From positions 1 through 64,000 of the forward strand of contig JAGWWY010000004.1 of the NCBI GenBank assembly GCA_018970145.1: a DNA stretch of 64,000 bases, written 5' to 3'. This DNA comes from Gammaproteobacteria bacterium (GTDB taxonomy: Bacteria > Pseudomonadota > Gammaproteobacteria > Steroidobacterales > Steroidobacteraceae). Below are positions 49,013 to 58,633 of this stretch, piece by piece. The position numbers were made by a program, and so were the translations under genes. The notes beneath the pieces were generated by a model, which was not told the DNA's origin, did not search any database, and saw only the letters and a list, made by a program, of their open reading frames with translations. How positions within the stretch are numbered: position 1 is the stretch's first letter; every line of letters starts with the position of its first letter.

Positions 49013-49351
49013 TTAAGCGACGCCGGGGGCCTTCACGTAGACCTTGCACCAGCCCGCATTCTTCACGAGTTTGCCCGGGAAGAGATTGCACTTGCCTTGA
49101 GCGGCCTTACGGTCCTTCTCGGCCCACTGCAGACAGTTGCCGCAGATCTGGCCAGGCTTGTGGTTCGGATTCGCCTTGGCATCAACTTTCTTGGCGTCTT
49201 CGACGTAACCCAAGGCTTTCGCAGCCGGTTCGTCAACTTTGAGTGCAGGCAACGCGGCTTGCGCTTGCGCCGTTTCGACGGCGACACCGATCGCAGAAAG
49301 ACCAAGGACGCTGGCGCCGATCACTTGGCGACGGGTCAGTTTGTCAGTCAT
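49013..49351 (-). CDS. High-potential iron-sulfur protein (HiPIP)
   Basis: 112 residues. A Tat signal (KLTRRQVIGASVLGLS) is followed by the HiPIP fold with four cluster Cys in the order CGNC...KCNLFPGK...GWCKVY near residues 70-105. HiPIPs are periplasmic one-electron carriers with a [4Fe-4S] 3+/2+ cluster, often donating to cytochrome c or oxidases. Stand-alone gene with its own hairpin downstream. Confidence 0.93.
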   Translation of the reverse strand: MTDKLTRRQVIGASVLGLSAIGVAVETAQAQAALPALKVDEPAAKALGYVEDAKKVDAKANPNHKPGQICGNCLQWAEKDRKAAQGKCNLFPGKLVKNAGWCKVYVKAPGVA

Positions 49352-49655: not shown

Positions 49656-50056
49656 GACGGCACCACCCGCCCATCTCGCAGCGCGAGCCAACCGCGCAAC
49701 ACGCGATAGAGAACCCAGATTCCGATCACCAAAAAGCCGAGTGCTGCGGTGGCGAACCCGACGAGGATCAGCATCAGCGGTGCAGAGAGTGCGAGAACGA
49801 CGAGACTGGTGAAGAACGCCCACCAGAATGTGCGGATCTGCCAGCGGAAGTGGCTCTCGAGCCACGTCTCGCGAGCTTCGCTACGACGCGCATAGTTCAT
49901 CACGACGGCAACGATCGAGGGCAGCCCAAAAATAAAACTGCCGACGATCGTCGCGGCACCGGTGATCCCGATCAGTACTGAAAGCGCGTGCAGACCGTAG
50001 ATCACGTGCGTATAGGTGATGAGCGATGGATCCGGTGTGCGTATGAAATCGTTCAT
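49652..50056 (-). CDS. DUF4870-like small membrane protein
   Basis: 134 residues from ATG 50056 (ATGA overlap with the upstream gene). Three helices (YGLHALSVLIGITGAATIVG; FWWAFFTSLVVLALSAPL; ATAALGFLVIGIWVLY), with the family-like ESHFRWQIRTFW between them. Role unknown. Confidence 0.75.
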   Translation of the reverse strand: MNDFIRTPDPSLITYTHVIYGLHALSVLIGITGAATIVGSFIFGLPSIVAVVMNYARRSEARETWLESHFRWQIRTFWWAFFTSLVVLALSAPLMLILVGFATAALGFLVIGIWVLYRVLRGWLALRDGRVVPS

Positions 50057-50490
50057 CGGCGATTGATCACGGCCATGGTGATCCGTGAGATACAAACGAG
50101 CTGACTGCGATCATTGTGAATTTCGATGGACCAGACCTGACTGCGTGAGCCGGCATGCAGAAGGTAGGTGGTGCCGGTGACTCGCTCGCCTTTCGGGACC
50201 GGACGCAGATGGTTCGCGTTGATCTCTTGCCCGAGTACGCGATGCGCATCATCCATCGTAGCGTTCGAGGCTGTGCTCGCGAGTGTCTCGGCAAACGCAA
50301 CCGAGGCGCCGCCATGCAACACACCCATGGGCTGACAGCTGCGTTCATCCACGGGCATCGTGCCGCGCAGGAAATTCGGGCCAATCTCGGTAAAGACGAT
50401 GCCGAGGCCTTCGACCATCGTGTCTTTGGCGTATGAGTTGAGTCCCTCAAGCGTGAGATCGGCGCGCCAGGGTACCGGAAGTCCGCTCAT
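50053..50490 (-). CDS. Hotdog-fold acyl-CoA thioesterase (PaaI/YdiI family)
   Basis: 145 residues. The signature GVLHGGASVAFAETLAS contains the catalytic Glu of YdiI/MenI-type enzymes; VLGQEINANHLRPV and GSRSQVWSIEIHND are also typical. Hydrolyses an aromatic or aliphatic acyl-CoA; substrate unknown. It overlaps argH by 4 bp, so it is expressed with arginine genes, possibly without metabolic connection. Confidence 0.88.
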   Translation of the reverse strand: MSGLPVPWRADLTLEGLNSYAKDTMVEGLGIVFTEIGPNFLRGTMPVDERSCQPMGVLHGGASVAFAETLASTASNATMDDAHRVLGQEINANHLRPVPKGERVTGTTYLLHAGSRSQVWSIEIHNDRSQLVCISRITMAVINRR

Positions 50491-51689
50491 TTTTCGTTCA
50501 CCTGGTTCGCTCGTAGTTCGATGCCGATGCGGCGATAAGCTTCGCGGAACGGAATGCCCTCGTTGACCACGAGTTGATTGGCGCGTTCTGCGGCGTGGAT
50601 GGTGGGATCGAGATCGATGTTCTCACGTTTGAAGCGCATCGCGTCGATTGCAGGTGGCAGGATGGCCGTGCTGGCGAGTGCGAGGTCGATGCCGCGGAAC
50701 AGCGGCAGCTTCAGTAATTGCAGATCCCGCTGATAGCCCGACGGTAGTTTCGCGAAAATACCGAGCGCTTCGACGAGGCAGCCGTGCGCAGTCGCCGTTC
50801 TGCCGCGGAGCAACTCGAAAACGTCGGGATTACGTTTTTGCGGCATGATCGACGAGCCCGTCGTGAACTCATCCGGTAGTTCGAGGAAAGCAAATTCTTG
50901 GGTGTAATAGAGGCAGACATCGGCTGCGAATCGGCCGAGGTCTTGCATCAATAACACGATCTCGAACAAGAGGTGCGATTCGGCCTTGCCGCGCGAAAGC
51001 TGCACCGCCGTGACCGGTTCGTGCACGGATTCGAAGTCGAGTGCACGAGTGGTGGCATCGCGATCGAGCGGTAAACCCGGGGTGCCGTAACCTGCTGCGG
51101 AACCAAGCGGATTCTTGCCGAGGCGCCGCTGCACGGCGCGCAAGCCTGCCGCATCGTCACGAAGTTCGGCTGCAAAGCCGCCGGCCCACAGGGCCACCGA
51201 ACTCGGCATCGCTTGTTGCATGTGGGTGTAGCCGGGCAGATCGAGGTCGCCTTCGCGAGCGGCGAGTCGTGACAGCGCGAGCGCGACAGCTTCGGCACCT
51301 TCGGCGATCTGCAGGGTGACATCGCGCAGATACAGGCGAAGCGCGGTGAGAACTTGATCGTTGCGTGAGCGACCGAGATGCACTCGTCCGCCCGCAGCAC
51401 CGATGAGTGCCGTCAGACGCCTCTCGAGCGCCGTCTGGCCATCTTCATCGCCGAGCTCGATCTGCCAATCGCCTTTGGCATGCGAGGCGATCAAGGACTC
51501 GAGACCACTCTCGATGGCTTCGCAGTCTTCGGCCGAGAGCAGCTCCTGCGCGTGCAACATTTGGGCATGGGCGATCGAGGCGCGTGCATCGTAGGGGACG
51601 AGGCGCTCATCGAGAGCGTGATCTTCGCCCGCCGTGTATTGCAGCACGCGCTCATCGAGCGGTACGCCCTTATCCCAGAGTCGTGTCAT
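50487..51689 (-). CDS. argH: Argininosuccinate lyase
   Basis: 400 residues, shorter than the usual ~460, as in other acetylornithine-type arginine clusters. Splits argininosuccinate into arginine and fumarate. The fumarase/aspartase signature TGSSIMPQKRNPD is intact, as are GRVHLGRSRNDQV near residue 105 and PGYTHMQQAMPSS near 150 with the catalytic His. N-terminus RLWDKGVPLDERVLQYTAG. Overlaps argB and the thioesterase gene by 4 bp each. Confidence 0.93.
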   Translation of the reverse strand: MTRLWDKGVPLDERVLQYTAGEDHALDERLVPYDARASIAHAQMLHAQELLSAEDCEAIESGLESLIASHAKGDWQIELGDEDGQTALERRLTALIGAAGGRVHLGRSRNDQVLTALRLYLRDVTLQIAEGAEAVALALSRLAAREGDLDLPGYTHMQQAMPSSVALWAGGFAAELRDDAAGLRAVQRRLGKNPLGSAAGYGTPGLPLDRDATTRALDFESVHEPVTAVQLSRGKAESHLLFEIVLLMQDLGRFAADVCLYYTQEFAFLELPDEFTTGSSIMPQKRNPDVFELLRGRTATAHGCLVEALGIFAKLPSGYQRDLQLLKLPLFRGIDLALASTAILPPAIDAMRFKRENIDLDPTIHAAERANQLVVNEGIPFREAYRRIGIELRANQVNEK

Positions 51690-52633
51690 GCGCGCGCCGA
51701 GTGTGCAGCGGCAAGTTCCGCGGGCGCCAGCTTGCCGATATCGGCGACAACGAGTGTGCCGGTGCCTTCGTTGGTAAAGACCTCGGCTAGAATCGCATCG
51801 GCCGCCTTGTAAGCAATGACGTGCACGCGCTGCACACCACCTTGGATTGCCGCCTCGATCGCTTTTGCCTTTGGCAACATGCCATCGACGAGACGCTTTT
51901 CGTCTTTGAGACGCTTAAGACCCGCGAGGTCGGTGTACGAGATCACCGAGGTGGGGTCCTCGACGCGCTCGAGAATCCCGGGGGCGCCCGTGCAGAGCAC
52001 CAGTTTCTCCGCACCGAGGGCAGCGCCGATCGCGGCAGCCACGGTATCGGCATTGATGTTGAGCAGCGTGCCCGAGTCGTCGCTCGAAAGCGGCGAGATG
52101 ACGGGCATCAAGCCGTTATCGAGCAGTTTGCGGATGACGTCGGTATCGATGTAGTCGATATCACCGACGAAACCGTAGTCGACGGTGGCATCGCTGCTCT
52201 GCAGTTTCACCGGCGCGCGCTTGTGTGCCTGGATGAGACCGGCATCCACACCGCTGATGCCGATGGCCGGCACGTCGAGTTCGCGACAGGTCGCGAGAAT
52301 GCGGGTGTTGATGAGACCACTCAGTACCATCGCCGTAGCATCGATCGAACGCTCGTCCGTGACGCGACGACCCTCGATCATCTGCGTGGGCACGCCGAGT
52401 TTCTCGGTCACTTCGGTCAACTGCGGACCGCCCCCGTGCACGAAGACGACGCGAACGCCGAGTGTGTGCAGGATCGCGATCTGCTCGATGATGTTGCGTG
52501 TCGCTTCCGGATCGCCAAAGACTCCGCCGCCCGCCTTCACGACGAAGGTCTTGCCTTTGAACAGACGGATATAAGGCGCTGCACCACGCAGGGCACGGAT
52601 CACGGCCGAGGGGTCGGGGCGATGCATGATCAT
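51686..52633 (-). CDS. argB: N-acylglutamate kinase
   Basis: 315 residues, a stand-alone amino-acid-kinase domain. It has no C-terminal GNAT domain, unlike the fused ArgA-ArgB of Xanthomonas. The phosphate-binding Gly-rich loops are VVKAGGGVFGD and VFVHGGGPQLT; TLLNINADTVAAAIGAALGA and LVDGMLPKAKAIEAAI are family signatures. Phosphorylates N-acetyl- (or N-succinyl-) glutamate. The extended N-terminal helix (AVIRALRGAAPYIRLF) is typical of hexameric, arginine-sensitive forms. Confidence 0.92.
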   Translation of the reverse strand: MIMHRPDPSAVIRALRGAAPYIRLFKGKTFVVKAGGGVFGDPEATRNIIEQIAILHTLGVRVVFVHGGGPQLTEVTEKLGVPTQMIEGRRVTDERSIDATAMVLSGLINTRILATCRELDVPAIGISGVDAGLIQAHKRAPVKLQSSDATVDYGFVGDIDYIDTDVIRKLLDNGLMPVISPLSSDDSGTLLNINADTVAAAIGAALGAEKLVLCTGAPGILERVEDPTSVISYTDLAGLKRLKDEKRLVDGMLPKAKAIEAAIQGGVQRVHVIAYKAADAILAEVFTNEGTGTLVVADIGKLAPAELAAAHSARA

Positions 52634-53643
52634 CGTTGAGATACTCCAGTCGAAAGCAGTCGATGTAACACCGCCATCTGGGCGGGCAAACGGTTGTAAG
52701 CCTCTTGCAGCACGATGCTGCGCGGACCGTCAAGAATGTCATCGGCAACAGCAACGTTGCGTCGCACCGGCAAGCAATGCATGAACTTGCAGTCCTTTGC
52801 AGCCGTATCGAACCAGGATTCATGCACGCACCAGTCGCTGAGCTTGGCGCGCAGCGCGGCATCGGCGGCTGCATCACCATAATGCGCGGTCGAGCCCCAT
52901 TCTTTGGCGTAGAGCACATGTGCGCCTTGCATGGCGGCCGCACGATCGGTGGTCTCAGTGACCGAGCCGCCCGAGGCCACTGCAGCAGCGCGTGCTTTGT
53001 CCATCATCTGCGGCGGCAACGCGTAACCTTCTGGACGCAAGACGACCACTTCCATGCCGCGTTGGGCGGCCATGTGCACGGTGGCTGCCGGAACGGCAAG
53101 CGGCGTAACTCGCGGATGATTCGCCCACGACAGCACGAACTTCGCACGCTGTGGGACTTTCCGATCTTCGAGCGTCTTCCAGTCGGCAAGCGCCTGACAG
53201 GGATGATTGATGGCGGACTCGAGATTGATCAGCGGTTTGTCAATGACCGACGCCATCGCTTTGAAAGCGGTTTCGGCCAGATCGTAGTGCAAATCTTTGC
53301 CTTCCGCGAAAGCACGAATTCCGAGTGCATCGGCAAAGGAGGCGAGCACGGGCAAGCCTTCGCGCACATGCTCTGCTGCGCCGCCGTTCATGACGGCGCC
53401 GGTACGAGTTTCGAGTTGCCACGTGCCCTGACCCGGCGTGATGACGAACGATGAGCCGCCAAGTCGCATCATCCCCACTTGGAACGACGACAACGTACGC
53501 AGCGACGGGTTGAAAAACACCAAGCCAAGGATTTTGCCGGCGAGCGCCTGAGGCTCGGGGTGCTTCTCGAGGTGTTGCGCCAGCGCGATTAAATCAAGGA
53601 CTTCCTCGCGGCTAAAATCTGCCAGATCGAGGAAACGATTCAT
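52630..53643 (-). CDS. argF': N-acylornithine carbamoyltransferase (AOTCase/SOTCase family)
   Basis: 337 residues from ATG 53643, overlapping argD by 4 bp. It belongs to the acylornithine branch, not OTCase: FFNPSLRTLSSFQVG near 44, the W-containing GQGTWQLETRTGAVMNG, HPCQALAD near 150, YAKEWGS and HCLPVRRN near 300. The position equal to Glu92 of Xanthomonas AOTCase, which reads out acetyl versus succinyl, is Ala90 here (NGGAAEHVRE). Published E92A/P/S/V mutants turn AOTCase into SOTCase, so succinylornithine is the predicted substrate. Not tested. Confidence 0.88.
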   Translation of the reverse strand: MNRFLDLADFSREEVLDLIALAQHLEKHPEPQALAGKILGLVFFNPSLRTLSSFQVGMMRLGGSSFVITPGQGTWQLETRTGAVMNGGAAEHVREGLPVLASFADALGIRAFAEGKDLHYDLAETAFKAMASVIDKPLINLESAINHPCQALADWKTLEDRKVPQRAKFVLSWANHPRVTPLAVPAATVHMAAQRGMEVVVLRPEGYALPPQMMDKARAAAVASGGSVTETTDRAAAMQGAHVLYAKEWGSTAHYGDAAADAALRAKLSDWCVHESWFDTAAKDCKFMHCLPVRRNVAVADDILDGPRSIVLQEAYNRLPAQMAVLHRLLSTGVSQR

Positions 53644-54776
53644 AAATCCTCCAACGCAGCGCGCAGCAGATCCACGTGCTCGATTTTCAGGGTGTAGGGT
53701 GGAAGCAGACGCAGGACCTGCGGGTCGGCGCTGGTACCGGCAAGAATGTCCCGCGCGAGAAGGGCAGCTTGAACCTCTTTGGCAGGTCGATCTAAGCGCA
53801 GTCCGTGCAGGAACCCGGCGCCTTGATGTCCAACGACGGGGCCCACGGTGCACGTCTCGCGCAGATAGCGCGAGACCTCGCGCACGTTCGCGAGGAGATC
53901 CTCGGTTTCGATGGCGTCGACCACGGCCTCGATCGCAGCACAAGCCATCGGACCACCACCAAAGGTAGTACCGAGACCTTCGAGCTTCAAAGAGTCGGTC
54001 ACGGGTGGTGACATCAGGAGCGCGCCGCAGGGGAAGCCGTTGCCGAGGGCTTTAGCCGTCGTGATCATGTCGGGCATCACGCGATACATGTTGGCGGCGA
54101 ACGGCCAGCCACTGCGGCCGACACCGATCTGCACTTCATCGAAAATCAACTGCGCGCCCATGAGCGTGCAGCGTTGACGCAGCGCGCCTAGAAATTCTGC
54201 TCCCATGTCGAAGGCGCCGCCGACGCCCTGCACGGGTTCGACGATGACAGCCGCCGTGTCACGCGTGACGAGTTGGCTGATCGCCGCAAGGTCACCGCGC
54301 GGTATGTAGGCAACGCCAAACGGCGTGCGCGGGAACTCGTACCATTTTTTATCCGCACCCCAAGTGACTGCGCCTGCAGCAGCCGTTCGGCCGTGGAAAG
54401 CGCCTTCGACACCGACGATATTCGGTCGTCGTGTCATCTTAAACGCCATGCGAAGTGCGTTCTCATTGGCTTCGGCACCGGAGTTGACGAAGAAAACGCT
54501 GTCAAAATGACCACCGGCGAACTTTGTCAGCTTGTTAGCGGCGCGGACTCGCACTTCCATGGGTACGGCATTACTTTGGAAATTACATAGCCCGGCTTGT
54601 TGCGCGATCGCTTGCGTCCAACCCGGGTGTTTGTATCCGAGCGCTGCGACGGCGTGACCACCATACAAATCTAGGATGCGACGACCATCGCGCGTATGCA
54701 GCCAGACACCTTCGGCATCGACGACTTCGATGGGGTATTGCGCGAACACGGGCGCGAGATGATCGGCGGGGCTCAT
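53640..54776 (-). CDS. argD: Acylornithine aminotransferase
   Basis: 378 residues, class III PLP aminotransferase. It makes N-acylornithine from the semialdehyde using glutamate. Visible: LDLYGGHAVAALGYKHP near residue 36, NSGAEANENALRMA near 98, VEPVQGVGGAFDM near 185, QLIFDEVQIGVGRSG near 215 and the PLP Lys in TTAKALGNGFPCGALL near 243. It can act on acetyl or succinyl substrates in this family. Confidence 0.93.
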   Translation of the reverse strand: MSPADHLAPVFAQYPIEVVDAEGVWLHTRDGRRILDLYGGHAVAALGYKHPGWTQAIAQQAGLCNFQSNAVPMEVRVRAANKLTKFAGGHFDSVFFVNSGAEANENALRMAFKMTRRPNIVGVEGAFHGRTAAAGAVTWGADKKWYEFPRTPFGVAYIPRGDLAAISQLVTRDTAAVIVEPVQGVGGAFDMGAEFLGALRQRCTLMGAQLIFDEVQIGVGRSGWPFAANMYRVMPDMITTAKALGNGFPCGALLMSPPVTDSLKLEGLGTTFGGGPMACAAIEAVVDAIETEDLLANVREVSRYLRETCTVGPVVGHQGAGFLHGLRLDRPAKEVQAALLARDILAGTSADPQVLRLLPPYTLKIEHVDLLRAALEDL

Positions 54777-54809: not shown

Positions 54810-55871
54810 TCAGGTCCAGCCCGGTGCCACGGCGGTCAGGCCGCGGTGCTCAGGAAGACCGAGCAAGCGATTCATCCACTGCACGGCACCACCGGCGGCG
54901 CCTTTGTTGAGATTGTCGAGCACACACATCACGGCAATCGTACGACCGTTGCTGGTTGCCGACAGGTTGGCGTAGTTGCTGGCGACCACGTCTTTAATAC
55001 GCGGTGCCGACTCGAGCACTCTCACGAACGGGGAGTGTGAATAGAATGCGCGCAACTTGTCGCGAAGCTCAGCTGTCGTGATCGTGATGCCCGGCGCCAG
55101 CGTTGCTTGCACCGTCACGTGAATGCCTCGGGCGATCGGTGCTGAGTGCGGCACGAACGCAAAATCGGCTTCGATGCCGGAGACGGCTGCGGCGCAAGCC
55201 GTAATTTCCGGAATATGCCGATGCGAGAGCGCGTTGTACGAATAGAGATCGCTGTGTCGGACCGGGTGATGCGTGCCATCCACGGGCTTTCTTCCGGAGC
55301 CTGTACTGCCCGTGATGCCGCTCACGAAGATCGTCGGTGAAACCAGTTTCTCAGCAAGCAGCGGCACCGAGGCGAGCAGTGTAGCCGTCGCGAAGCATCC
55401 GGGATGCGCCACGTGTTTGGCTGGCTGCGTGCGCAGGTGTTCAGGCACGGCACAAACGAAATCTTTGATACGGGCTGCTGCGCCGTGAGCATGATGGTAA
55501 ACAGCGGCATAAGCCTCAGCCGTGCTGTAGCGATAATCTGCTGAGATATCGACCACCCGAGGCGCGGTGCCCGCGACCTCGGCAGATTCGAGCAAGCGAT
55601 CGATCAAAGCGGCGCTCACGCCGTGTGGTGCTGCTGAGAACAAGGCGGATATCGGCAGGGTACTGATCAGTGCCGTCAACTCGGCTTCCGAACAGAAGGT
55701 GAGTTCGCCGAGCGCGGGTGCCAGATGCGGAAACGCTTTGGCAACCGACTCGCCAGGCTGAGAGTCGGAGAGAATTCCGGCGATCTCGAGATCCGGATGC
55801 GCAACGAGCAAGCGCAGCAGTTCACCCGCTACGTAACCGGTTCCACCCAGAATGAGCGCAGGGGTTTTCAT
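54810..55871 (-). CDS. argC: N-acyl-gamma-glutamyl-phosphate reductase
   Basis: 353 residues. NADPH-binding ILGGTGYVAGELLRLL at the N-terminus and the catalytic Cys in AHPGCFATATLLASVP near residue 153. GITGSTGSGRKPVDGTHHP and HRHIPEI are typical. Reduces N-acylglutamyl phosphate to the semialdehyde. Start forms a TGATG junction with the DUF1611 gene. Confidence 0.95.
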   Translation of the reverse strand: MKTPALILGGTGYVAGELLRLLVAHPDLEIAGILSDSQPGESVAKAFPHLAPALGELTFCSEAELTALISTLPISALFSAAPHGVSAALIDRLLESAEVAGTAPRVVDISADYRYSTAEAYAAVYHHAHGAAARIKDFVCAVPEHLRTQPAKHVAHPGCFATATLLASVPLLAEKLVSPTIFVSGITGSTGSGRKPVDGTHHPVRHSDLYSYNALSHRHIPEITACAAAVSGIEADFAFVPHSAPIARGIHVTVQATLAPGITITTAELRDKLRAFYSHSPFVRVLESAPRIKDVVASNYANLSATSNGRTIAVMCVLDNLNKGAAGGAVQWMNRLLGLPEHRGLTAVAPGWT

Positions 55872-56950
55872 CAGTTCGCTGCCGCTACCGGAAATTTTGC
55901 ATCGAGACCGATGGCCGAGATCACGCAGTCACCGAGCGCCGCACCGTCGCTCAGGGCGTTGTGAGCCGGCACTTTCATTTGATCGCGGATGATGTCGACG
56001 CCGACGGCATTGTCGGTGGCGGGGCCTGTGACGGCGCAAGGCTCGATACCGAAGCGCTCTCGCAGCAGCTTCACGCCACCCCACGCCGCGACCGGATCGT
56101 TGGCCGACAGCACGACACCGGTCAGCGCCTTGCGGATATCGTCGCACTCGAGAATCGAGTCGACGCCGTATGTGCCGAGAATGCCGTCGCCGAGTTCGAA
56201 GACGATGACATCCGGCTTCTTCGCCGAGATTTCAGTGATCATCGTACGCGTAAGCGCAGGGCCCACGGCACGCGTGGTCGTGATGATGCCGAGATCGGTG
56301 AAGATCATCGAGTTGCGGGCGCCGGCATCTTCCATCGCCAAGATATCGCGACGCAGTGATACGCCGGTCGCCTTGAACACATCGACGGTGAGACCGCGAT
56401 GGCGCATACGACTGACCATCTGGCAGGCCGCTGCTGTTTTACCCGCTTCCATGCAGGTGCCCGCCAGCGCGACGACCGGCACACCGTGAGTCTCTAGCGG
56501 CGCATTCAGATCGAGCTTTCGATAGCCTGCGCGCGCTGGCACGCCGATGCGTTCACCGAGATAGGGGAAGGTGAGCACGACACCCAGCACCTTACAGTCG
56601 AAGGGTTTGCCTTTGTCGGGATTGGCTGAGTCGCAGATGCCGAGCACGCCACCGATGTTGAGCATCTGGATGACATCACCGGCTTTGAGCGTTTCGGGCA
56701 CGTGTCCGGAAAAACCGAAAAGTGCTTTGCGATGACCCAGTGCACCCACGACGATATCGCCCTTGTTGACCTTGGCCATGCGGCCACTCGTCAATTCGAG
56801 CGTGTTGTAGTTGGCTTTGCTCGTGAGTATTTCCACGACGACTACGATGCCCTCTTCGGAGGGCAAGTTGTCGGTGGAGATACGCAATTCGTGGCCGAGA
56901 CCACAGGCTTGAGTGACCGAGGCCACCTTATCGACGACGATGGTTCGCAT
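55871..56950 (-). CDS. DUF1611 (DgcN-related) P-loop protein in the arginine operon
   Basis: 359 residues. The N-terminal domain (about 1-140) is followed by a P-loop domain with LAGTCMEAGKTAAACQMVSRM near residue 165 and downstream FELGDGILGTYGVDSIL near 250. A characterised DUF1611 member, DgcN, N-acetylates D-glutamate. This one sits between argG and argC with no gap to argG, while no argA or argJ is nearby. It is therefore a candidate for the first, glutamate N-acylating step. The fold is clear; the function is inference. Confidence 0.85.
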   Translation of the reverse strand: MRTIVVDKVASVTQACGLGHELRISTDNLPSEEGIVVVVEILTSKANYNTLELTSGRMAKVNKGDIVVGALGHRKALFGFSGHVPETLKAGDVIQMLNIGGVLGICDSANPDKGKPFDCKVLGVVLTFPYLGERIGVPARAGYRKLDLNAPLETHGVPVVALAGTCMEAGKTAAACQMVSRMRHRGLTVDVFKATGVSLRRDILAMEDAGARNSMIFTDLGIITTTRAVGPALTRTMITEISAKKPDVIVFELGDGILGTYGVDSILECDDIRKALTGVVLSANDPVAAWGGVKLLRERFGIEPCAVTGPATDNAVGVDIIRDQMKVPAHNALSDGAALGDCVISAIGLDAKFPVAAAN

Positions 56951-58171
56951 TTAGTTTGACTCCCCTGCGGCCGCGCGTTCGCCGGCTCGACGATGAAACA
57001 CACCCGTGAGGCCCACGATGCGCGAGAAACCGAGTGCATCGGCTGCGGTCCATTCGCCTGTCGCTTCGCCGTAGACCCCTTTCGAGGCCGCCATCAAGGA
57101 GTAGGGTGAGTCCACGCCTTCGATGAAAAGCGAACCCGGTCGAAACAGCACGTTCACGATGCCTGTGACGCGTTCCTGCGATTGTAGGAAAAGGGCTTCG
57201 ATATCGCGGCAGACCGGATCAAGCAACTGACCCTCGTGTACCCAATCGCCGTAAGGACCTGCCAACATTTCTTTGATACGCTGCTGTCGACCCGTCAGTA
57301 CGAGCTTTTCGAGCTCGCGATGGGCATTGAGCAACACCTCGGCGGCGGGCGCCTCGAACGCGACGCGACCCTTGGTGCCGATGATGGTGTCGCCCAAGTG
57401 AATGCCGCGACCGATACCGTAGGGCCCAGCCAACTGCTCGAGGCGCTCGATGACCTCGACAGCGGTCATGGTTTGACCATCGATACCGCAGGGAACACCC
57501 CGATCGAAACGAATGACATGGCGTGCGGGCGCCCTCGGTTGCGTGAAGGCGTCTTTGGAGAGCACCCACGCATCGTCGGGGATGCCACCCTGCGAGGTCA
57601 GCGTTTCCTTGCCGCCGATACTGACGCCCCAGAGACCGCGATTGATCGAGTATGCGGCGCCGTGCGGCGGGACCGGCAGTTGCCGCGCAGTGAGAAAATC
57701 GAGCTCTTCCTGACGTTTGAAGTGCCGGTCGCGTACGGGCGCGATGACCTCGAGCTCGGGGGCGAGTGTGCGCAGCGCCACTTCGAATCGCACCTGATCA
57801 TTGCCGGCTGCCGTGCAACCATGCGCGATGCTGCCGGTGCCAAGCTCGCGCGCCATGCGAGCGATGATTTGTGCCTGCATTACTCGCTCTGCGCCGACCG
57901 ACAGCGGATAGAGCTGGCCGCGACGGACGTTCCCCATGATCAAAAAACGCAGCACCTGCTCGAAGTAGTTGGCGCGCGCATCGATCTGGTGATGCTCCGA
58001 TGCGCCGAGCGCCAAGGCGCGTTCGTGCAGCGTCTTCGCCGCTGCGGCATCGATACCTCCCGTATCGACCGTGACGGTGATGATCGGGCGCCGATACTCC
58101 TCTTTCAGCCACGGAACAAGGAAAGAGGTGTCGAGGCCGCCGGAATAGGCGAGAACGATCGGTTGGGACAT
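56951..58171 (-). CDS. argG: Argininosuccinate synthase
   Basis: 406 residues. The PP-loop SGGLDTS opens the protein (LAYSGGLDTSFLVPWL), and the second signature GSIAHGCTAAGNDQVRFE is near residue 115. It couples citrulline and aspartate using ATP. AAGERAAAGE tail is Ala-rich. AAGGA upstream. Placed 9 bp after argR and directly before the DUF1611 gene. Confidence 0.95.
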   Translation of the reverse strand: MSQPIVLAYSGGLDTSFLVPWLKEEYRRPIITVTVDTGGIDAAAAKTLHERALALGASEHHQIDARANYFEQVLRFLIMGNVRRGQLYPLSVGAERVMQAQIIARMARELGTGSIAHGCTAAGNDQVRFEVALRTLAPELEVIAPVRDRHFKRQEELDFLTARQLPVPPHGAAYSINRGLWGVSIGGKETLTSQGGIPDDAWVLSKDAFTQPRAPARHVIRFDRGVPCGIDGQTMTAVEVIERLEQLAGPYGIGRGIHLGDTIIGTKGRVAFEAPAAEVLLNAHRELEKLVLTGRQQRIKEMLAGPYGDWVHEGQLLDPVCRDIEALFLQSQERVTGIVNVLFRPGSLFIEGVDSPYSLMAASKGVYGEATGEWTAADALGFSRIVGLTGVFHRRAGERAAAGESN

Positions 58172-58180
58172 GGAGGATCC

Positions 58181-58633
58181 TTAAAGACGAAATAGCTTGC
58201 GCAGGCGTACCACGAGTGTGGTTTGGGCTTCGCCGGAATCGGTGGCGATGAAGATGGTGTCATCGCCCGAAATGGTGCCGACGACTTCAGGCCACGCGGC
58301 TTTGTCGATGGCGATGGCGACGCTTTGCGCAGCGCCAATCGTGGTTCGCAGTACCGTCAGGGCTGCGCCGGCTGTCGCCACACCCCGCACGAACTGGCGC
58401 AGGGTGTCGAAGTCATCGAGCGTCCGGGACGACTCTTCGGACGGCGGCAGGTAGCGACCGCTCGCTTTCAAGACGCCGAGTTCCCGCAGATCGCGACTGA
58501 CGGAGGACTGGGTGACATCGTGACCGGCCTCGCGCAGCAGGCGCACCAACTCGTCCTGCTTGCGCACGGGTGCGCCGCGCAGGATGCGCAGGATGGCCTC
58601 GCGGCGGTGCGGGTGGTGGGGGTCGGCTTGCAT
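58181..58633 (-). CDS. argR: ArgR, arginine repressor
   Basis: 150 residues. N-terminal winged helix ([24 protein letters not shown]) binds ARG boxes; the C-terminal oligomerisation and arginine-binding domain includes [17 protein letters not shown]. First gene of the arginine operon. The ATG at 58633 has no Shine-Dalgarno, and the predicted transcription start is only about 6 nt upstream, so the mRNA may be nearly leaderless. Confidence 0.93.

Follow-up and report, generated by a model that had tools for sequence, protein, structure and literature searches.

A P-loop protein encoded between argG and argC is a candidate N-acylglutamate synthase of a gammaproteobacterial arginine operon

The window analysed here, i.e., the whole stretch of 64,000 nt from contig JAGWWY010000004.1 (GCA_018970145.1), carries a compact arginine operon in the order argR-argG-X-argC-argD-argF'-argB-argH, with all genes on the minus strand. 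The gene under study, referred to as X, occupies positions 55871-56950 (-). The features of the locus are the following:

58181..58633, minus strand: argR, arginine repressor; both Pfam domains above cut-off, below the NCBIfam cut-offs
56951..58171, minus strand: argG, argininosuccinate synthase; above the NCBIfam cut-off of the arginine model
55871..56950, minus strand: gene X, 359 aa, candidate glutamate N-acyltransferase; ATG-started ORF
56426..56461, minus strand: Walker-A-like segment within X (residues 164-175), positioned by counting codons from the gene start (56950)
54810..55871, minus strand: argC, N-acyl-gamma-glutamyl-phosphate reductase; above the NCBIfam cut-off
53640..54776, minus strand: argD, N-acylornithine aminotransferase family; expected family, below the NCBIfam cut-offs
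52630..53643, minus strand: argF', acylornithine carbamoyltransferase; above the NCBIfam cut-off
51686..52633, minus strand: argB, N-acylglutamate kinase without a fused acyltransferase domain; above the NCBIfam cut-off
50487..51689, minus strand: argH, argininosuccinate lyase; above the NCBIfam cut-off
50053..50490, minus strand: hotdog thioesterase ORF, sharing 4 bp with the end of argH

The spacing within the operon is 9 bp between argR and argG and 33 bp between argC and argD, and from argD onwards each gene overlaps the next by 4 bp. An earlier sequence-only reading of this DNA had placed X almost without gaps between argG and argC, which is confirmed by the ATG-started 359-residue ORF directly abutting argG (0 bp) and overlapping argC by 1 bp. 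The same reading had pointed out that argB lacks the fused GNAT domain of the Xanthomonas type, and indeed the 315-residue ArgB consists of the kinase domain only. The hotdog thioesterase ORF at the end of the operon was matched in 28 of 80 related loci, some of which end before that point. Further along in the window, a small ORF at 49013-49351 (-) appears to resemble a high-potential iron-sulfur protein.

X had been labelled a DUF1611/DgcN-like protein, a label that does not hold. No Pfam or NCBIfam match was obtained for X at E 1e-3; its best weak Pfam match, DUF1611_C (PF07755), scores 17.9 bits (E 0.0022) where 25 would be required and covers residues 153-196 only, followed by MobB as the next weak match in a search at E<=10. 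Comparison of 15 X orthologues with seven true DUF1611 proteins using hhalign aligned 45 columns at the P-loop with a probability of 7%, both profiles being shallow. The N-terminal domain of DUF1611 proteins is Rossmann-like; Pfam gave no match to this domain in X, and both structure models are of low confidence in that part. Of ten scanned relatives, one (L116, a distant homologue) scores above the DUF1611 cut-off, with 29.5 bits for a match of 42 residues around the P-loop, and another (L119) above that of MobB (35 versus 26.6). The genome containing X encodes a true DUF1611 protein on another contig (C1:325224-325817, L132), which scores 253.9 bits and is a better DgcN candidate than X. With a score below cut-off, similarity confined to the P-loop and a separate true DUF1611 gene in the genome, X was rejected as a member of DUF1611, and all that stays true of the earlier label is a relationship of the P-loops. 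The likeness extends over about 45 residues and consists of a P-loop with the same spacing, read by eye as GTxxxxGK followed by F(K/R)ATG. DgcN, a DUF1611 protein and a D-glutamate N-acetyltransferase, would share with X a glutamate-related role, which for X is only proposed. D-glutamate N-acetyltransferase, EC 2.3.1.312, is named as an activity in a passage of PMC11747546. The argument leading from DgcN to the role of X falls together with the family label, the match being restricted to the P-loop.

The Walker-A-like stretch of X (GxxxxxGKT, comprising G164 and G170-K171-T172) is invariant in 81 aligned sequences, i.e., those of 80 loci and the window. An AlphaFold model calculated from 47 sequences has a mean pLDDT of 76.8, with most of the C-terminal domain modelled well and much of the N-terminal 140 residues poorly, and another model, built from 81 sequences, brought no improvement for the N-terminal region. 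Accordingly, the architecture comprises a poorly modelled region of mostly strands (residues ~1-150) and a P-loop domain (residues ~155-350). The best Foldseek match for the model is dethiobiotin synthetase 3of5 (E 8.2e-6, query TM 0.38), and among 128 matches at E<=0.001 the best 50 are dethiobiotin synthetases, SRP GTPases and HypB, with the SRP GTPases scoring nearly as high as dethiobiotin synthetase. In the predicted structure X has a P-loop NTPase-like fold, combining the Walker A loop with a matching fold. Its C-terminal fold resembles that of the dethiobiotin synthetase-like P-loop proteins, which belong to the SIMIBI class, although X differs from dethiobiotin synthetase in its N-terminal part and gene context and shares with it only 13-15% identity over the match. 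A sequence search of the PDB returned no meaningful relative of X, and no known acyltransferase resembling X beyond the P-loop was found by PDB sequence search, Pfam or profile comparison. Judged from its sequence, X is a member of a P-loop family for which neither Pfam nor NCBIfam holds a model.

A scan of one genome per species identified 304 encoded relatives of X, and linkage was counted in the best 80 of these 304 loci, which are close relatives with 73-100% X identity, several of them named Steroidobacteraceae and one belonging to an isolate, Povalibacter uvarum. A survey of linkage to argC and argG, which had been suggested for DUF1611 proteins, was thereby run for X: within this set argC lies at most 200 bp downstream of X in 78 of 78 testable loci, two contigs ending first, and argG is the nearest upstream operon gene in 78 of 79. 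Upstream, one contig starts 49 bp before X, and in L030 (9391-13129) the order is argR-X-argC-argB with argR instead of argG preceding X and argB running into the contig end. A computed argG-X gap of -1080 bp in one locus was taken for a start-picking error. Over the 56 loci with near-complete genes, the median identity of X (80.0%) is practically that of argG (80.3%), followed by argH (74.2%), argF (73.2%), argB (72.6%) and argC and argD (67.8% each). Two records titled Klebsiella pneumoniae (L001 and L014) contain the operon at 88-100% X identity; since another set of arginine genes would be expected in Klebsiella pneumoniae, both records are probably metagenome bins under a wrong name.

Beyond these close relatives, 274 genomes of the class were searched with a profile and X matches were obtained in 18, of which six are orthologue-like (E < 1e-90) and 12 contain distant homologues only. 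Three of the six orthologue-like cases come from the order of the window's genome, and the other three (L112, L113 and L114, from two families) encode X at 42-44% identity, still located between argG and argC. The operon reads argD-argF-argB-argH-argG-X-argC in both L112 and L114, the contig of L113 being short, so the gene order has changed but argG-X-argC is intact, indicating that the linkage survived rearrangement. Among 398 genomes of the phylum, X matches at E<=1e-10 occur in five, the window's genome included. One of the five, G528, is placed outside the window's class and carries X at 70% identity in the cluster argR-X-argC-argB (L144 6089-9739). Here X is accompanied by argC and argB, whose products catalyse the two steps that follow, and the cluster likely represents a transfer of the head of the pathway. 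The 13 distant homologues with surroundings listed lie outside arginine operons, as judged by the operon's own genes.

The surroundings of the distant homologues show recurrent neighbours of their own. L116, L121 and L145 directly adjoin an M20 hydrolase gene, with a flavin-reductase-like gene next in line in L121 and L145 (checked by Pfam in L121 only), and genome G167 has both the distant homologue L121 and X itself. L117 and L126 adjoin an ABC transporter ORF identified by Pfam, and L118, L119, L123, L124 and L146 adjoin an ORF that is similar by size and start only, the group ranging from 516 to 580 aa.

The absence of argA and argJ, previously noted for the window alone, extends to the full genome, which is 94.65% complete. 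ArgA (TIGR01890, cut-off 202.85 bits) was not found there, with argB providing the only match at 162.5 bits, and ArgJ (PF01960) gave no match at E<=10; X itself matches neither model. In the 274 genomes of the class, ArgJ is present in 207 and ArgA in 186, with at least one of them in 218 and neither in 56. All six genomes with orthologue-like X fall among these 56, and the 12 genomes with distant homologues only all have ArgA, 11 of them also having ArgJ. Fisher's test gives p 5.8e-5 for the association of X with the absence of ArgA and ArgJ, a value that overstates independence because three of the six X genomes come from one order. When argC was counted at E<=1e-25 in the 56 genomes without ArgA and ArgJ, it was present in ten: the six with X, two with an ArgB-NAT fusion (G012 and G165, the latter with one in-frame stop in its argC match), G079, with a completeness of 81%, and G024, with a fragment that scores below the cut-off where a contig ends. 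ArgJ was likewise absent from all of 49 further X genomes, namely G528 and 48 of those contributing the 80 loci (Povalibacter uvarum among them), although these 48 have no completeness figure and their species may overlap with the six; G504, which has a distant X homologue only, does contain ArgJ. The NAT halves of L127 and L128, searched against the window, 17 loci of its own genome and the 80 related loci, gave nothing convincing (best E 0.34).

The acyl group handled by the operon can be approached through the carbamoyltransferase. According to a passage of PMC4581275, Glu92, Asn185 and Lys302 of the Xanthomonas enzyme mark N-acetylornithine carbamoyltransferase and are replaced in the N-succinyl enzyme by A/S/P/V/Q, P and V/I/E, respectively; as stated in an excerpt of PMC7311316, a single residue switches the specificity, and succinyl is favoured by S, P, A or V. 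ArgF' of the window has the Ala90 noted earlier, which indeed occupies the position of Xanthomonas Glu92, and Pro181, both of the N-succinyl type, and Ala298, which is neither Lys nor V/I/E (numbered from the ATG). From the best 80 of the 304 loci, 71 ArgF' sequences were obtained and 68 were readable at the diagnostic positions: all 68 carry Ala in place of Glu92 and Pro in place of Asn185, and the third position is Ala in 67 and Val in one. Two more ArgF' sequences from the window's own order read Ala/Pro/Val (L115) and Ala/Pro/Ala (L122), and in the distant X operons the three residues are Pro/Pro/Glu for L112 and Val/Pro/Glu for L114. Glu/Asn/Lys, the N-acetyl type, is found in the two genomes that have ArgB-NAT and lack X. 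Thus three different succinyl-type residues accompany X, and the acetyl type accompanies the NAT fusion. Two observations speak against the succinyl type: the Ala found at the third position in 67 of the 68 sequences is outside the published list, and the ArgF' of the window passes the NCBIfam model of N-acetylornithine carbamoyltransferase with 352 versus 288 bits. The X operon resembles the succinyl route of Bacteroides (BT3761 and BT3717, treated in an excerpt of PMC7311316) in having succinyl-type residues at two of three carbamoyltransferase positions and in its predicted succinylated intermediates. The Bacteroides route differs in using the synthase BT3761, which is reported there to be >50% identical to the N-acetylglutamate synthase Cabys_1732.

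Taken together, the linkage, the missing-gene profile and the ArgF' residues single out X as the best candidate N-acylglutamate synthase of these genomes, with succinyl-CoA as the likeliest donor. We put the probability at about two in three that X opens arginine biosynthesis by acylating L-glutamate on a P-loop scaffold, the acyl group being in all likelihood the succinyl of succinyl-CoA. Each line of evidence is circumstantial and related genomes are not independent. The sequence-only reading had likewise proposed that N-acetylation or N-succinylation of L-glutamate by X would fill the missing first step; this role, in a succinyl-type route, is well supported by the same three lines, its basis in the DUF1611 family having failed. 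In the mechanism we propose, X would attach the acyl group to the alpha-amino group of L-glutamate, its P-loop domain of the dethiobiotin-synthetase-like class would replace the ArgA and ArgJ folds, and CoA (or ATP) would be bound by the P-loop through its phosphates. ArgB, ArgC and ArgD would then lead to N-acylornithine, which ArgF' would carbamoylate to N-acylcitrulline; a putative hydrolase would take off the acyl group, and ArgG and ArgH would complete arginine synthesis. X would therefore share with ArgA, ArgJ and ArgB-NAT the predicted formation of N-acylglutamate for arginine, but it matches none of their models and occurs where ArgA and ArgJ were not found.

The removal of the acyl group bears on the main rival to this proposal. 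As claimed before for the window, no argE was seen there, nor did an M20 search of the whole genome reveal an argE-type gene: of six matches (L106-L111), five above the Pfam cut-off, two were scanned with NCBIfam, one proving to be DapE and the other passing only an uncharacterised subfamily, and the remaining four were judged by eye to be exported or of another peptidase type, leaving DapE as the only ArgE/DapE-type enzyme identified. In nine loci, no deacylase was recognised in or beside the operon, as judged by eye from the first 90 residues with ORF picking often on the wrong strand. As a guess, DapE, which is a desuccinylase, might remove the N-acyl group. An alternative that we regard as unlikely is that X is a transacylase analogous to ArgJ, which would use N-acylcitrulline (or N-acylornithine) as the acyl donor for glutamate and thereby perform the first step and the deacylation at once. 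Such an enzyme would fill both gaps, the absence of ArgA and ArgJ and that of an ArgE-type deacylase other than DapE. However, a P-loop would be more in keeping with CoA or a nucleotide as donor than with an amide, the cycle would still need a primer synthase, none of which was seen, and in a genome that is only 94.65% complete the deacylase may simply be missing.

Another possibility, which we consider improbable, is that X is a regulator, chaperone or accessory subunit and that the true synthase is an unassigned GNAT or free NAT protein. The genome does encode eight PF00583 (GNAT) proteins, seven above cut-off and most without an assigned substrate; only RimI passes a named cut-off, and it matches an N-acetylglutamate synthase model weakly (27 of 280 bits). 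None of the eight passes a glutamate-synthase model and none was accepted as ArgA, a result that leaves room for one. Against an accessory function, X occurs among the 274 genomes only where both ArgA and ArgJ are missing, which would be unexpected of an accessory protein, and its conservation equals that of argG over the 56 loci compared.

Similarly doubtful, and in our view slightly more so, is an ATP-dependent ligase that would join a free acid such as succinate to glutamate with an acyl phosphate as intermediate, by chemistry like that of dethiobiotin synthetase. The best structural match and the invariant GxxxxxGKT loop speak for this activity, but the match is weak and the SRP GTPases score almost equally; moreover, P-loop folds of the dethiobiotin-synthetase-like class are very diverse in function. 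That X is the N-acylcitrulline deacylase or another late-step enzyme is very improbable: this step is also unfilled, but the L144 cluster groups X with early-step genes, the ArgA/ArgJ profile would be left unexplained, and no P-loop protein is known to act as a deacylase.

Returning to X as an N-acylglutamate synthase, a more far-reaching version, to which we give even odds, holds that X founds a new family of P-loop N-acyltransferases making N-succinyl-L-glutamate and that the proteobacteria would possess a succinylated arginine pathway independent of that of the Bacteroidetes. A search of open-licence PMC titles and abstract openings found no description of X. The first step of arginine biosynthesis has few known, unrelated solutions, and X, if our proposal is true, would add one on a P-loop scaffold and explain how arginine is synthesised in genomes without ArgA and ArgJ. 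It would also name a family that has no Pfam or NCBIfam model, lead to a corrected name for the adjacent carbamoyltransferase, at present a protein that passes an acetyl-type model, and extend succinylated arginine synthesis beyond the Bacteroidetes.
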